A stretch of 45,389 nt of DNA from Asticcacaulis biprosthecium C19 (GTDB lineage: Bacteria; Pseudomonadota; Alphaproteobacteria; Caulobacterales; Caulobacteraceae). Shown here in pieces: positions 7,725-43,609 of this stretch; the first letter of the stretch is position 1, and the number at the start of each line of letters is the position of its first letter. Under the pieces are notes generated by a model. It was not told where the DNA came from, made no database searches, and saw only the letters and a program-made list of their open reading frames with translations. Made by a program: the position numbers and the translations under genes. The stretch is taken from positions 128,296-173,684 of the forward strand of contig NZ_GL883079.1 of NCBI RefSeq assembly GCF_000204015.1, in the 5' to 3' direction.

Positions 7725-8111
7725 GCCACGCTGGTGGGCTGCAACCCGCCGTCTGGCTGCGATGCGGTGCTCACGTACAAGCGTACGCTCCGCTCCGCGT
7801 CTCGCCAGCCAGCGTCTTTCGCCTCACCATCGTGGCTCAGCTATGGCGTGTCTTTACTGGTGGGCTGCAAACCGTCATCTTCTTGCGATACGGTGCTCAC
7901 GTACAACGTTTTTGGTTGTGCTAACGCTTCGCTCGTTGAGCACGAAACGCTCCGCTCCGTTTCTCAGAAGCCAACGGGTTTCGCCTCACGATAAGCGCTC
8001 AGGTTAAAGCGCTTCCCTAGTTGAGCACGAAGAACTCCGCTCCGCGTCTCGCCAGCCGGCGCGTTTCGCCTCACCATCGCGGCTCAGCTTAAGTGCGCTC
8101 ATTCTACAGAG
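7725..8111. repeat. Degenerate repeat patch, GGTGCTCACGTAC/GCTCCGCTCCG family
   Basis: 387 bases without a gene between convergent genes. GGTGGGCTGCAA occurs at 7733 and 7859, and CGGTGCTCACGTACAA at 7765 and 7891, both with a 126-base period. The companion block CTCCGCTCCG..TCTC..GCC..TTTCGCCTCAC appears three times (from about 7788, 7950 and 8034). Copy 2 carries an extra stretch of some 36 bases. A further copy lies at 32175-32238, also in a convergent gap. The short frames reading through it are not convincing genes. Confidence 0.8.
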
Positions 8112-14359: not shown

Positions 14360-14436
14360 GAGGGTCCTCGAAACATATGCATAATCAGCAGATTCTCTTC
14401 GCTCTTACAAAAGCGCAAGGCTTTGGTCAATCAGGC

Positions 14437-14600
14437 TAGTGTCGTGATTTCGAAGTTCGCCAGCTTCGATATCAGCCAAGAGCGCGAACTTCGAAATCTC
14501 AACGACACTAAAATGATAAGTTGCTGGTGTCCTTTTGATTCTGAAATTCGCATAGAGCTTGATATCGGACAGGGGCGAATTTCAGAATCAGGACACCAGG
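14437..14600 (+). repeat. Composite two-hairpin element, copy 1
   Basis: Hairpin A spans 14437-14510: TAGTGTCGTGATTTCGAAG opens it and the mirrored CTTCGAAATCTCAACGACAC closes it. Hairpin B spans 14524-14599: CTGGTGTCC and TCTGAAATTCG arms with GGACACCAG at the far end. GATATC is in both loops. Copy 2 is at 41998-42161 in reverse orientation and has the same length. The right arm of B contains the last codons and stop of the MarR-GNAT gene. Confidence 0.85.
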
Positions 14601-15559
14601 ACCTTTTCCAGCGAGATGTCGGAGCGCTGATACAGTTCGTGCAGTCCCGTGGCGCTGTCGACATAGCCCAGTTTGCGATAGGTCGGCACGGCGTGCGGTA
14701 GTTTCACCGATGAGACCAGGTAGAGCTTGGTGAGGCCCAGTGACCGGGCATGGTCCTCCACGGCGGCGACCAGGGCAGTGCCGATGCCCTTGCCCTGGAA
14801 CACCGTTGACACCGCCATTTTGGCCAGTTCGTACATATCGTCCGAGCGTTTGACCAGGGCACAGGTACCGACGATCTGGCCATGGACGGCGGCCATATAG
14901 ATGGCGCCGCCGGGGGCGATGATCAGGCCAACCGGGTCGGCAAACATCTGGCGATCGACGGGCTCGACGGTGAAATAGTGTTCCAGCCATTCGGTGTTCA
15001 ATGCTTCGAAATAGCGTTGATTGTCAGGCATGGCCGGGTCGTAGGGGCGGATTTCGAGCCCTTCCAGAAGACGATCGCGCTTCAGAACAGTTTTCAGTCC
15101 CCGTGGAATGGCGCGGTCGTCGACGGCTTCCTCAAGACGGGCCAGCAGTTGTAGCGTTTGGTCGGCGGTCTCGCCAGGAAAGGCGGTTTCAAGGGCCTGG
15201 CGCAGGACGAACCAGGCTGGCTCCAGCCGGGTGTGCAGGACCTGGCCCGAGGCGGTGAGGGTGACCTGTTTGATCCGCCCGTCGGTCGGTGCCGGGGTGA
15301 GTTCGATCAGTCCGGCTTCGACCAGTTGTTTGCAGAAGGCGTTGACGGCGGCATGCGACACGCCGAGTTGCTGCGACAAGGCCATCATGCCGATACCGGG
15401 CTGCTTGTGGACCGTGCGGAAGAGGGGGAACCAGCGCGGTTCAAAGTCGAGCTTGTGCTCGTCGTAGAAGGCCTTGACGGTGGCCATCATGTTTTCGCTA
15501 AGCACGCGGAACCGTGTGCCAAGGGCGAGGATACCGAGGTCTTGCAGGGCTTGTGTCAT
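14588..15559 (-). CDS. MarR-type regulator fused to GNAT acetyltransferase
   Basis: A 323-residue fusion. Residues 1-150 are a winged-helix MarR domain (VHKQPGIGMMALSQQLGVSH, then VEAGLIELTPAPTDGRIKQV). Residues 170-320 are a GNAT domain with the acetyl-CoA loop VFQGKGIGTALV. Bifunctional proteins of this layout are common; the acetylation target is unknown. A perfect palindrome right at the promoter suggests autoregulation. The -10 element would put the transcript start at the ATG, so the mRNA may be leaderless; no ribosome site is seen. The final codons (V-L-V-S-stop) are supplied by the inserted repeat element, so the natural C-terminus may once have been different. Confidence 0.9.
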   Translation of the reverse strand: MTQALQDLGILALGTRFRVLSENMMATVKAFYDEHKLDFEPRWFPLFRTVHKQPGIGMMALSQQLGVSHAAVNAFCKQLVEAGLIELTPAPTDGRIKQVTLTASGQVLHTRLEPAWFVLRQALETAFPGETADQTLQLLARLEEAVDDRAIPRGLKTVLKRDRLLEGLEIRPYDPAMPDNQRYFEALNTEWLEHYFTVEPVDRQMFADPVGLIIAPGGAIYMAAVHGQIVGTCALVKRSDDMYELAKMAVSTVFQGKGIGTALVAAVEDHARSLGLTKLYLVSSVKLPHAVPTYRKLGYVDSATGLHELYQRSDISLEKVLVS

Positions 15560-29744: not shown

Positions 29745-29923
29745 GCCGTGATCGGCGGACACCGTTGGTGCTGCGAAGTGCAATCGATGTCGTTGCGGGT
29801 TATGGCTTCACGCCTGGATGACATTGCCGTCATAAGGCGGACTTGCGGTAGCCGCGCTCTGTGATCCTGTTTAGATTCGCCGCCAGCGATAAGAACAGTG
29901 GAAACGACCCAAAGGAACTGACC

Positions 29924-32119
29924 ATGACCAAAGCGTTCAACCGGTTCAGTGCGTTCGCAGGCGGGATCAACCAGGCCATCTATTACGGCACCATCGCCAA
30001 TGACACCTATGTAGGCACCTCCGACAACGACCAGGCCGACGGAAATAGCGGTGACGATTACCTCGACGGCGCCGGCGGCAATGATTTTCTCGTCGGGGAG
30101 CGTTACTGGGAGCTTGTCGGCAACGACACCCTGATCGGCGGGGACGGCAACGATAATCTGAGCAGCCTGGGCGGGATCGACGTTCTGGATGGCGGCGCCG
30201 GCATCGACTTCGTCGAGTATGTCCAGACCTATGCGACCGTGTCCTATCTGTTCGATGTCACGGCCATGGCGACGACGACCGGCGTGACCCTGGCGGACGG
30301 CACCATAATTCGCAACGTCGAGCGCGCGCATTTCGACGCGGGGCTGGGCAATGACACCTTTATCGGCGGTTCCGGAAGTGACACTTTTTTAGGCGGTGGC
30401 GGCAACGATCTGGCGACCGGCGGTTCCGGCGAAACCTATCTGTCGGGCGGCGCCGGCAATGATACGCTATCGGGCGGCGGCGGCGTGGACCGGCTGAGCG
30501 GCAACGAGGGCAATGACAGCATCACCGGTGGCACGCACAACGATTTCCTGCATGGCGATTGGGGCAATGACACGCTGTTTGGCAATACGGGCAACGACCG
30601 CCTGGAAGGCAGTGATGGCGACGATCTGTTGAACGATACCTCCGGCGCCAACATCCTGCAGGGTCATTCCGGCAATGACACCATCACTGCAGGTAACGGC
30701 AATGACAGCATCTGGGGCAACGCCGGTGCCGACTTGATCGAGGCCGCTGGTGGAAACGACACTATTTATGATGACGACAGTGTTTCCACGCGTGGGAATG
30801 ACACCATCAGTGCGGGTGGTGGCGACGATATCGTCAGCCTCTGGGGCGGCGCGGATGCGATCGATGCCGGCGCAGGCCAGGACAGTTTCACGCTGTGGTA
30901 TGGCGGGCTGAGCGATGATTTCCTGATCGATGTATCCCAGGCGCACACCAGTGCCGGCTCGATCTTCTCGACCGGTACGGTGATCCGCAATGCCGAATTC
31001 TTCAAAATCTATACCGGTAGTGGCGACGACACCCTGGTCGGGACGGCCCATGACGATGTGATCGAAACCGGCTCAGGCGATGACTCGATCACCGGCGGCG
31101 ATGGCAACGACAGCATAACCGGTGGGTTGGGCTATGACTTTATTGATGGCGGCGCCGGGAACGACACGATCTGGGTGGCGCAGCCCGATATCTCGGAAGG
31201 CGATACCCTGTACGGCGGCGATGGAAATGACGCACTCTACGGCACGCGGACCGGCGACGATGTCCTGATGGGCGGGGCGGGGAATGACTCGATCTACGGC
31301 CATTTCGGCAATGACACGGTCTCCTATGCCGACGCCACGGCTGGGGTGACGGTCGATCTAAATCTGGCGACGCAGGCGACGGGTGGCAGCGGGACGGACT
31401 GGCTCGACGATATCGAGAACCTGATTGGCTCGGAGTTAAACGATAACCTCTTGGGTGACGGCGCTGATGGGGTGATGCAAGGCCTCGGCGGCAATGACAC
31501 GGTGGCGGGCAGTTCCGGCCACGACACGATCAGCGGCGATGATGGCAATGATAACCTGTCGGGTGGAACGGGTAACGACGTGCTTATGGCCGGTGACGGT
31601 GACGACCTGATCCAGGCGGGGGCCGGTGATGACTCGATCGACGGCGGGCTGGGTTTGGATACGATGAGCTACTCCACCGCCACGGCGGCGGTCACGGTCG
31701 ACCTGGCGCTGGCGGTGTCACAGGCGACCGGCGGGGCGGGGTCGGATATGTTGCAAGCGATCGAAGGGCTCATCGGGTCCGGTCACAATGACACGCTGTC
31801 GGGGGATGGTGGTGACAACAACCTGGATGGGCGTGCCGGCAATGACATCCTGAATGGCGGTGCAGGCAAGGATATCCTGAGCGGGAAGGCAGGGCTGGAT
31901 ATCTTCCTGTTCGGAATCGGCAGTGGGCTGGACGTGATCAACGATTTCAGCGCGACCGATGGCGACCTGATCAATGTCAATGCCTATACCGGCGGGGTGG
32001 CCAGTCCGGGAGCGGTTACTCAGACAGGCTCCAGTGTCACCATCGACCTGGGTGGGGGGAATGCGATCACCGTTTTCAACGCCAGCCAGGCCGATGTGCT
32101 CAGTCATATGGTGTGGTAA
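29924..32119 (+). CDS. RTX calcium-binding repeat protein, probable type I secretion substrate
   Basis: A 731-residue protein made almost wholly of GGxGxDxLx nonapeptide repeats (for example GGDGNDNL, GGAGNDTLSG, GGTGNDVLMAGDGDD), which fold as calcium-bound beta rolls outside the cell. Four longer modules interrupt the repeats, two of them similar (VTVDLNLATQATGGSGTDWL and VTVDLALAVSQATGGAGSDM). The C-terminus (LDVINDFSATDGDLINVNAY to SHMVW) is the usual uncleaved type I secretion region. No catalytic domain is seen. Start ATG 29924 follows AAAGGAAC. No ABC exporter or outer-membrane factor is in the window. Divergent from kdp; ends near a repeat of the 7725-8111 family. Confidence 0.9.
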   Translation: MTKAFNRFSAFAGGINQAIYYGTIANDTYVGTSDNDQADGNSGDDYLDGAGGNDFLVGERYWELVGNDTLIGGDGNDNLSSLGGIDVLDGGAGIDFVEYVQTYATVSYLFDVTAMATTTGVTLADGTIIRNVERAHFDAGLGNDTFIGGSGSDTFLGGGGNDLATGGSGETYLSGGAGNDTLSGGGGVDRLSGNEGNDSITGGTHNDFLHGDWGNDTLFGNTGNDRLEGSDGDDLLNDTSGANILQGHSGNDTITAGNGNDSIWGNAGADLIEAAGGNDTIYDDDSVSTRGNDTISAGGGDDIVSLWGGADAIDAGAGQDSFTLWYGGLSDDFLIDVSQAHTSAGSIFSTGTVIRNAEFFKIYTGSGDDTLVGTAHDDVIETGSGDDSITGGDGNDSITGGLGYDFIDGGAGNDTIWVAQPDISEGDTLYGGDGNDALYGTRTGDDVLMGGAGNDSIYGHFGNDTVSYADATAGVTVDLNLATQATGGSGTDWLDDIENLIGSELNDNLLGDGADGVMQGLGGNDTVAGSSGHDTISGDDGNDNLSGGTGNDVLMAGDGDDLIQAGAGDDSIDGGLGLDTMSYSTATAAVTVDLALAVSQATGGAGSDMLQAIEGLIGSGHNDTLSGDGGDNNLDGRAGNDILNGGAGKDILSGKAGLDIFLFGIGSGLDVINDFSATDGDLINVNAYTGGVASPGAVTQTGSSVTIDLGGGNAITVFNASQADVLSHMVW

Positions 32120-41997: not shown

Positions 41998-42161
41998 CCA
42001 GTGTCCTAAATTCTGAAATTCGCTTGTGTTTGATATCGGCCTCAGGTGAATTTCAGAGTTTAAGGGACTCTCGTGATTATTAAGTTTTAGTGTCGTTCAG
42101 ATTTCGAAGTTCGTTGCGCAGGCTATATCAAAAACGTACGAACTTCGAAATCACGACACTA
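41998..42161 (-). repeat. Composite two-hairpin element, copy 2 (reverse orientation)
   Basis: Hairpin A spans 42088-42161 (TAGTGTCGTTCAGATTTCG at one end, CGAAATCACGACACTA at the other). Hairpin B spans about 41998-42070 (CCAGTGTCC, TTCTGAAATTCG, GATATC in the loop). The reverse complement lines up over its whole length with 14437-14600. It lies in the 383-base gap between rpmJ and the transglycosylase gene, which otherwise must hold two divergent promoters. Confidence 0.85.
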
Positions 42162-42250
42162 GGGCGTTATTTTCATCACGTGTGTGGCCTTTAAAGCCTT
42201 GGAAAGGGAATCGCAATCGGGGTAAACTTGCCTCAAACCCGGGAGCTTCT

Positions 42251-43609
42251 ATGCGTCTTCGTTATGTCAGCCTGTTCGCCCTGTTGAGCGCCTGCGCCAC
42301 CGACACGCAGTCGCCGGCGCCTGTGCCGCACGCGCCCGTTGCCCCGCCTGCTGCCGCAGGTGAGCCTGCGCCGGCACAAGTTCCAGGGGCGGGGAGTTCG
42401 GCTTCATCAACGCCTGCCGCGGCGGAGCCGGCACCGGCGCCTGTGCCGACCATAAGCTACAGCAACTTCGACCAGTGGAAGCAGAACTTCATCAGCAAGG
42501 CGGCCTCGCGCGGCTTCGACCCGGTCTTTACGTCGCAGGTTCTGGAAAACGTCCAGCCGCTGCAGAACGTCCTGTCATCTGACAATCAGCAGCCGGAATT
42601 CTCCAAACCAGCCAGTTCCTATATGCGCCAGGCCGTCAGTCCGACGCGTGCCGCAGCGGCGCGGACGAGACTGGATGCCAACTTCAATGTCCCCGTGATC
42701 GTTACCAAGTTCGGTGTCCCAGCGCATCTTCTGGGCGGAATCTGGACGATGGAAAGCGACCTGGGTCGTGTCCAGGGGAATATAGACGTTATCTCGGCCC
42801 TGGCGACCCTGGCCTATGACGGTCGGCGCCGGGTGTGGGCGGAGGACGAACTCATCGCCTGCCTGACCATCCTGCGCGACCATAAGATCAGCCGCCAAAC
42901 CCTGAAAGGGTCCTGGGCCGGGGCGATGGGCCAGACCCAGTTCCTGCCCGACAACTATCTGCGCCTGGGCGCGGACGGTGACAATGATGGGGTCGTCGAT
43001 ATCTGGAAATCCGACTCGGACGCCCTGGCGTCGTCGGCGAACCTTTTGTCGAAGGCTGGCTGGAAACCCGACCAGGATTGGGCCGTTGAGGTGCTCTTGC
43101 CGGCGGGCTTTGACTATTATCTCGGTGAGACAGCCAAGAAAACGCCCGCCGAATGGGCGGCGCTGGGCGTAAAGCGCGCTGACGGCGGCTACTGGCGTGC
43201 GTCAGAGCAGGCGGAGGCGACGACCCTGCTGTTGCCGTCGGGGGCCAAGGGGCCGGCCTTCCTGGCCTTGCCGAACCATTACGCTATTCGAAAGTACAAT
43301 AATTCGACCAGCTATGCCCTGGCCGTTGGACTGATCGCCGACCTGATCGCGGGCAAACCGGCTCTGACGACGCCGTGGCCGACGGAACCGCCGCTCAGCC
43401 TGGAGCAACGCAAGAAGTCGCAGGAAGCCTTGAAGGCGGCGGGCTACGATATTGGCACCGTCGACGGCGTCATCGGCGTCAAGACGCGCCAGGCGGTTCG
43501 TGAATGGCAAAAGGCGCGCGGCGAGGTGGCGGACGGCTATCTCAGCTTCGACCTGGCCAACCGGTTCGTTGTCATGCAGGGCGGTACGCCGGCAACACCA
43601 CCTTCCTGA
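42251..43609 (+). CDS. Lytic murein transglycosylase, MltB-type lipoprotein with peptidoglycan-binding domain
   Basis: A 452-residue envelope enzyme that cleaves peptidoglycan to 1,6-anhydro ends. A lipobox (LLSAC, Cys15) suggests outer-membrane anchoring. A Pro/Ala-rich linker (about 20-65) precedes the GH103 domain: HLLGGIWTMESDLGRVQGN with the catalytic Glu, SWAGAMGQTQFLPDNYLRLG and DGDNDGVVDIWKSDSDALAS. The C-terminal 60 residues are a peptidoglycan-binding domain (ALKAAGYDIGTVDGVIGVKT, then RQAVREWQKARG). Start ATG 42251 puts the signal peptide at the N-terminus and has GGGAGC ahead. Confidence 0.93.
   Translation: MRLRYVSLFALLSACATDTQSPAPVPHAPVAPPAAAGEPAPAQVPGAGSSASSTPAAAEPAPAPVPTISYSNFDQWKQNFISKAASRGFDPVFTSQVLENVQPLQNVLSSDNQQPEFSKPASSYMRQAVSPTRAAAARTRLDANFNVPVIVTKFGVPAHLLGGIWTMESDLGRVQGNIDVISALATLAYDGRRRVWAEDELIACLTILRDHKISRQTLKGSWAGAMGQTQFLPDNYLRLGADGDNDGVVDIWKSDSDALASSANLLSKAGWKPDQDWAVEVLLPAGFDYYLGETAKKTPAEWAALGVKRADGGYWRASEQAEATTLLLPSGAKGPAFLALPNHYAIRKYNNSTSYALAVGLIADLIAGKPALTTPWPTEPPLSLEQRKKSQEALKAAGYDIGTVDGVIGVKTRQAVREWQKARGEVADGYLSFDLANRFVVMQGGTPATPPS

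Follow-up and report, generated by a model that had tools for sequence, protein, structure and literature searches.

The window analysed here, a stretch of 45,389 bases from Asticcacaulis biprosthecium C19, contains a folded element of about 164 bp at two places. The locus raises the question of what such an element is: a unit that moves, a site kept for the use of the host, or a structured RNA.

The two window copies and the twin-hairpin architecture

The original prediction described a 164-bp element present twice in opposite orientation, and both copies were confirmed. Their earlier limits shifted by one base once the CTAG feet were included; copy 1 spans 14436–14599 on the plus strand (164 nt, from a CTAG foot to a CCAG foot) and copy 2 spans 41998–42162 on the minus strand (165 nt, from a CTAG foot to a CTGG foot). 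An independent repeat search of the window also paired the two (24 nt at 100% and 29 nt at 97%). The covariance model R1 scored copy 1 at 160 bits and copy 2 at 136 bits, both being part of its training set. As delimited by element tabulation and DNA folding, copy 1 comprises hairpin A (14436–14511, feet CTAG and CTAA) and hairpin B (14524–14599, feet CTGG and CCAG, with GANTC in both arms), separated by the spacer AATGATAAGTTG (14512–14523), a diverged IHF-like site by consensus comparison. In copy 2, read on the minus strand, hairpin A (42087–42162) is followed by the spacer AACTTAATAATCA (42074–42086) and a partly decayed hairpin B (41998–42073). Folded as DNA, copy 1 reached −50.1 kcal/mol (z −11.1) and copy 2 reached −33.7 kcal/mol (z −7.7), and none of 200 dinucleotide shuffles was equally good in either case. 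Copy 1 adjoins a MarR-GNAT fusion gene (14588–15559, minus strand), the stop codon of which is supplied by the element, inside hairpin B. Copy 2 is located between the divergent genes rpmJ (L36; 41745–41867, minus strand) and a transglycosylase gene (42251–43609, plus strand). Elsewhere in the window, an 83-nt direct repeat occurs three times at 7763–8092 (63–77% alike), and a 752-aa ORF at 29861–32119 contains 27-nt periodic repeats resembling, by appearance, RTX calcium-binding nonapeptides.

The architecture was analysed in elements taken from the best 150 of 210 and the best 150 of 196 matches on both strands; 158 of 165 distinct elements were tabulated, the others being too short, duplicate, or with feet that did not pair within 3 mismatches. 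The order of parts was hairpin A, spacer and hairpin B, with an element length of 158–172 nt and hairpins of ∼76 nt. The spacer measured 13 nt in 105 elements, 14 nt in 30, 12 nt in 11, 15 nt in 5, and had some other length in the remaining 7. At each of the four feet, CTAG was more frequent than any other tetranucleotide (118, 106, 103, and 111 of 158). The three-base asymmetry next to the arm, pointed out earlier in the two copies, was found to be real and general: the spacer-side arm carries 3–4 extra bases, and was the longer one in 153–155 of the 158 A hairpins and 150–153 of the B hairpins, the range depending on the alignment window. The terminal inverted repeats were present as well, with a length of 24 nt. 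The loops, which had been taken as free, were not fully so, as the two loops of one element are alike when inverted; loop A, reverse-complemented, was closer to loop B in 110 of the 158 elements and less close in 48. GATATC in the loops marks a subfamily, with 49 and 47 of the 158 loops containing it. Hairpins A and B are inverted relatives of each other, and owing to the mirror asymmetry, the feet and the likeness of the loops, the element has the appearance of a single hairpin unit dimerised in inverted orientation. Solo hairpin units also occur; L328, L330, and L332 are hybrids that combine the left arm of A with the right arm of B, as if formed by loop-to-loop deletion. The element thus shares with REPINs and BIMEs an inverted pair of asymmetric palindromes, and with MITEs the terminal inverted repeats and an intergenic location, all but two of the tabulated elements lying outside called ORFs.

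Base pairing of the arms was supported by covariation. In the alignment of 43 sequences, 96.9% of cells were paired, as against at most 47.4% with slid partners. Two-sided changes were observed in 22 of 47 pairs (9.7 ± 1.8 in shuffles) and in 108 cells (21.2 ± 4.0 in shuffles), this covariation resting on the outer arms and on B outside the core because the search fixed the cores.

The IHF consensus is WATCARNNNNTTR. The spacer with its feet was within one mismatch of this consensus in 86 of 156 cases, compared to 2.8% in per-spacer shuffles, a figure that is not a probability as the rows share descent; with distinct spacers only, 46 of 117 were within one mismatch. Part of the match is lost in the spacer of copy 1. 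The spacer is therefore a predicted binding site, to which IHF may bind. GANTC was found 1.75 times per element as against 0.63 in shuffles, located in arm B in 107 of the 158 elements, in the spacer or feet in 61, in loop A in 17 and in loop B in 3.

Distribution and genomic setting of the family

An exact scan for the hairpin A core identified at least 117 stretches, 80 of them among the matches listed, and the core was present in Bradyrhizobium, Mesorhizobium, Bosea, Asticcacaulis, Phenylobacterium, Hyphomicrobium, and others. The twin-hairpin model R1 (166 positions, built from 43 full elements) matched 106 of the 117 core stretches at E ≤ 0.001 (91/100 and 15/17, counted by eye). The other 11 carry a different single hairpin and do not follow the twin plan. 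These single-hairpin repeats (L010, L016, L026, L043, L060, L072, L075, L081, L100, L116, and L122) have a loop like GGCCCCGAACGGCAGCCCCC and belong to Bradyrhizobium wherever the record was listed.

In the genome of A. biprosthecium C19 itself, R1 matched eight distinct loci, i.e., seven full elements and one solo hairpin. Matches were found in 17 of 25 Asticcacaulis genomes (own genome counted), and in 20 of 385 Alphaproteobacteria genomes and 17 of 277 genera, the class-wide count being a lower bound since only seven candidates per genome were scored. The original prediction had proposed such a covariance-model search and had set its claim against a finding of only two copies with no empty sites; both further copies and empty sites were found. 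Further subfamilies of the genus showed partly different arms, changed on both sides together with the plan unchanged (L225, L247, L257, and L258; the L245 group). The genus genomes richest in matches were G001 and G006, and both the own genome and G001 have copies missing from close relatives. No match was found in plasmids, phages, and viral contigs by BLAST, which is weak for short palindromes, one of the searches being for the exact core. A high-copy repeat of another kind adjoins two elements, at G006:C1 ∼31872 (left flank of L242) and at G001:C25 ∼6568 (right flank of L234), and is matched at dozens of positions across several genomes of Asticcacaulis.

The setting of the 158 tabulated copies, determined with a home-made ORF caller with unrefined starts and with distance limits, was a tandem gene gap for 73, a divergent one for 48 and a convergent one for 10, while 16 lay at a distance from any gene, 9 at an edge and 2 inside an ORF; an earlier count without distance limits gave 57 divergent and 10 convergent gaps. 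Background gaps were 97 tandem, 55 divergent, and 44 convergent. The divergent to convergent ratio of 48:10 hence differed from the 55:44 of the background (p = 5e-4), as it did with stricter gene calls (19:1 against 24:21, p = 0.0013); for a second stricter gene set it was 4:0 against 8:5 (p = 0.26). The direction relative to tandem genes was random (41:39).

Conservation varied from locus to locus. In the orthologous pair L246/L252, 1 of 167 element positions was changed, compared to 45 and 47 of 400 in the flanks, whereas the pair L240/L149 drifts, with 21 of 164 changed. The greater conservation of some copies than of their flanks suggests a retained function at these loci, and a use may have been acquired in some cases. 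The copies L245, L246, L251, and L252 (in G002, G004, G012, and G013) are nearly unchanged, each of four pairs differing at 1 of 167 positions, next to flanks diverging up to 12%, and are a candidate for a host function. Among nine aligned Bradyrhizobium contigs, eight retain one locus, and L064, the ninth, represents a different one.

Empty sites, target and outer feet

The sites of both window copies were found to be empty in the sister genomes G007 and G009. The search for empty sites by joined flanks used 28 elements, with L248, L249, and L255 outside the set. Elements with an ambiguous junction (L229, L231, and L134) or with no unbroken match across the junction (L155, L234, L139, L160, L142, L242, and L148) were left out, and the remaining 18 elements and the two window copies provided 20 sites. 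The mobility considered in the original prediction is thus supported by the number of copies, by sites that are empty in sister species, by the terminal inverted repeats and by the compensatory arms.

The target at the 20 empty sites was mostly CTAG-like, and at seven of them one or more relatives had exact CTAG; in the window, CTAG occurs 12 times as against 159.5 expected from base composition. CTAG was present in all relatives for L228 (5/5), L159 (2/2), and L239 (4/4), and in the single relative of L137, where it is part of six extra bases and the identity is 76%. It was present in two of four relatives for L240 (GTAG in the others), in one of two for L224 (CTGG in the other) and in one of five for L256. 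The empty site read CTAA in all four relatives of L237 and in two of three of L227 (CTTA in the third), CCAG in all five relatives each of L232 and L235, CTGG in all three of L238 and in one informative relative of L138, the second being uninformative, and TTGG in all four of L144. Two targets were not clearly CTAG-like: L145 (TAGG, CAGG, CAGG, and CAGA) and copy 1 (TGAG and CGAG-like in two relatives). Three extra bases rather than four were seen at four sites, namely, L147 (CTT, 3/3 relatives), L223 (about CTAA), L222 (CAG, or CCAG with one shifted flank base, in one relative at 80% identity) and copy 2 (CCG and CTG).

Nine sites showed four clear bases other than CTAG (L227, L237, L232, L235, L238, L138, L144, L145, and copy 1) and could be used to follow the fate of the target. 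At these, the left foot was CTAG in 9/9 and equal to the target in 0/9, and the right foot was CTAG in 7/9 and equal to the target in 1/9 (L235); the target site duplication of a MITE was hence not seen at them. At L222, the target reads CCAG and so do both outer feet, as duplication would give. Among the 158 tabulated elements, altered outer feet matched their own hairpin partner in 21 of 40 cases on the left and 25 of 47 on the right, and equalled the opposite outer foot in 6 of 40 and 6 of 47. As altered feet often match the hairpin partner, the data accommodate both a replacement of the target and a later correction of the feet. We favour the former, in which the element would bring its own CTAG feet and the target bases would be lost.

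Mode of movement and relation to known systems

A moving enzyme was looked for in several ways. The transposase with matching inverted ends that the original prediction had asked for was sought in 17 genus genomes, several of them in many contigs, allowing up to 3 mismatches of one consensus, and none of the genomes yielded an insertion sequence sharing these ends; the reversed-pattern control gave 0 in 17/17 genomes. Outer-arm matches were either inverted pairs 49–143 nt apart from start to start, mostly 139–143, or unpaired arms. Eleven unpaired-arm regions were inspected and read as hairpins, solo or hybrid, in a state of decay or as coding-like sequence, and the remaining ones were at places already matched by R1. 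The RAYT family PF01797, detected in 5 of 14 control genomes including E. coli and Caulobacter vibrioides, was found in 4 of 25 genus genomes and was absent from the other 21, among them G001 and G006, as well as from the own genome (0 matches). Clustering of 3,033 ORFs around the loci showed, judged by eye, shared synteny and common transporter-like families as the largest clusters. None of these searches (ends, PF01797, and ORF clustering by eye) revealed a transposase linked to the copies.

DDE insertion sequences of the IS5 or IS701 type make a 4-bp CTAR duplication. It is rather unlikely, but conceivable, that the element is an ordinary MITE of such an insertion sequence, in which template switching inside each hairpin later converted the duplicated feet to CTAG. 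The CTAG-like target, the 24-nt terminal inverted repeats, L222 and the frequent identity of altered outer feet to their hairpin partner are as expected from this explanation, but the target seldom matched either foot at the clear non-CTAG sites, altered outer feet rarely equalled each other, and no pair of ends at insertion-sequence length was present in the 17 genomes. The MITE likeness drawn earlier does not hold in its textbook form, as duplication fits L222 only among the tabulated sites. The BIME likeness stands for the inverted palindrome pair with its IHF-like spacer and fails for movement driven by a RAYT. A REPIN or BIME mobilised by a RAYT (Y1 transposase) of the same genome would account for the inverted pair of asymmetric hairpins and for tetranucleotide feet with a tetranucleotide target, but is very improbable given the distribution of PF01797, for which RAYT-driven movement was rejected in most carriers, and given hairpins of ∼76 nt compared to REPs of 20–40 bp (PMC3733652).

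A role mainly as a host regulatory site, for IHF or the nucleoid or for cell-cycle methylation, spread by descent with mobility long ended, appears quite improbable. It agrees with the scarcity of convergent neighbours in the home-made gene calls, the enrichment of GANTC and the single locus kept in eight Bradyrhizobium contigs, but presence varies between sister species, the own genome and G001 hold copies missing in close relatives, and the distribution across the class is patchy (20/385). An RNA element (terminator, attenuator, or sRNA) is extremely improbable in spite of the long and stable hairpins. The window gave no Rfam match at gathering scores, orientation was random with respect to tandem genes, and there was no enrichment between convergent genes. 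Mismatches in 295 distinct hairpins were G.T in 66, A.C in 67 and others in 145, and on the co-transcribed strand of tandem copies G.U was no more frequent than A.C (32 and 32; 17 and 13 with stricter gene calls). As RNA would be expected to show a preference for G.U, the pairing of the arms is probably maintained in DNA.

The element is rather likely to be a non-autonomous, REPIN/BIME-like mobile element that is moved in trans by an enzyme encoded elsewhere. It consists of two homologous hairpin units head to head, with CTAG feet and a fixed spacer-side asymmetry of 3–4 nt; binding and bending of the spacer by IHF would let the hairpins meet. The enzyme would recognise the hairpin shape, the asymmetry and the CTAG feet, and the moving form of the unit would be either a folded single strand of DNA or its two ends in synapsis. 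Insertion would take a CTAG-like tetranucleotide and leave the element's own CTAG at the ends, in accordance with most scored sites; the feet might be corrected afterward, and old copies would then be retained or decayed locus by locus. Against this mobile-element reading stand the failure of the searches to reveal an enzyme, L222, which fits duplication, the four sites with three extra bases, the targets of L145 and copy 1, which are not clearly CTAG-like, and the orthologous copies that are better conserved than their flanks. More tentatively, the element may represent a recombination system not described so far, which jointly reads the shape and asymmetry of an IHF-held, CTAG-footed hairpin pair, exchanges a CTAG-like tetranucleotide for a CTAG-ended element without duplication or linked transposase, and has spread across Alphaproteobacteria with arms changing mostly in compensatory pairs. 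Intergenic palindromes scattered over Bradyrhizobium, Mesorhizobium, Bosea, Asticcacaulis, and others are hereby united by a single architecture, the target and ends of which are defined. The system is testable through sister genomes that carry or lack a given copy, through the contact predicted for IHF and through the enzyme that is missing; should replacement of the target be true, this mode of insertion lies outside the target-duplication models.

No prior report of the element was recognised among the literature matches listed, as far as their available text goes. The E. coli BIMEs/RIBs and REPINs share with it the inverted pair of asymmetric palindromes, and RIBs also an IHF-like site in the spacer; the element differs in the absence of RAYT from most carriers, in its larger hairpins and in having CTAG instead of GTAG. 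RIBs, reportedly located at the 3′ ends of transcription units according to Boccard and Prentki, differ from the element in this respect as well. Transposition of the IS200/IS605 HUH type likewise involves hairpin ends with extrahelical bases and a tetranucleotide target with no duplication, whereas the hairpins of the element are inverted, with CTAG at both ends, and most carriers have no Y1 enzyme. The Correia/NEMIS elements of Neisseria are similarly small, with terminal inverted repeats and an IHF site, and are mostly intergenic in their longer form, but they have a target duplication and one overall stem rather than two arms with a linker (PMC2229807). CGTC-tagged REPs are also palindromes found mostly in Alphaproteobacteria without a link to a transposase gene, but differ in their short stems, which bear a CGTC tag and in most cases a CCA tail (PMC3733652), and the sequences of Br-REP1 and Br-REP2 of Bradyrhizobium differ from the element (PMC5082802). 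The CIR elements of Caulobacter, compared by description only, are ∼110 bp long, with GANTC at the terminal loop and no terminal inverted repeat listed in the sections available (PMC2229807, PMC10969869). Like them, the element is intergenic, occurs in Alphaproteobacteria, and has two palindromic arms with a linker and GANTC sites. On the same descriptions, it is set apart from CIR by its length of 158–172 nt, by GANTC mainly in arm B and the spacer rather than at or near the terminal loop, and by its clear terminal inverted repeats, CTAG target and IHF-like spacer.
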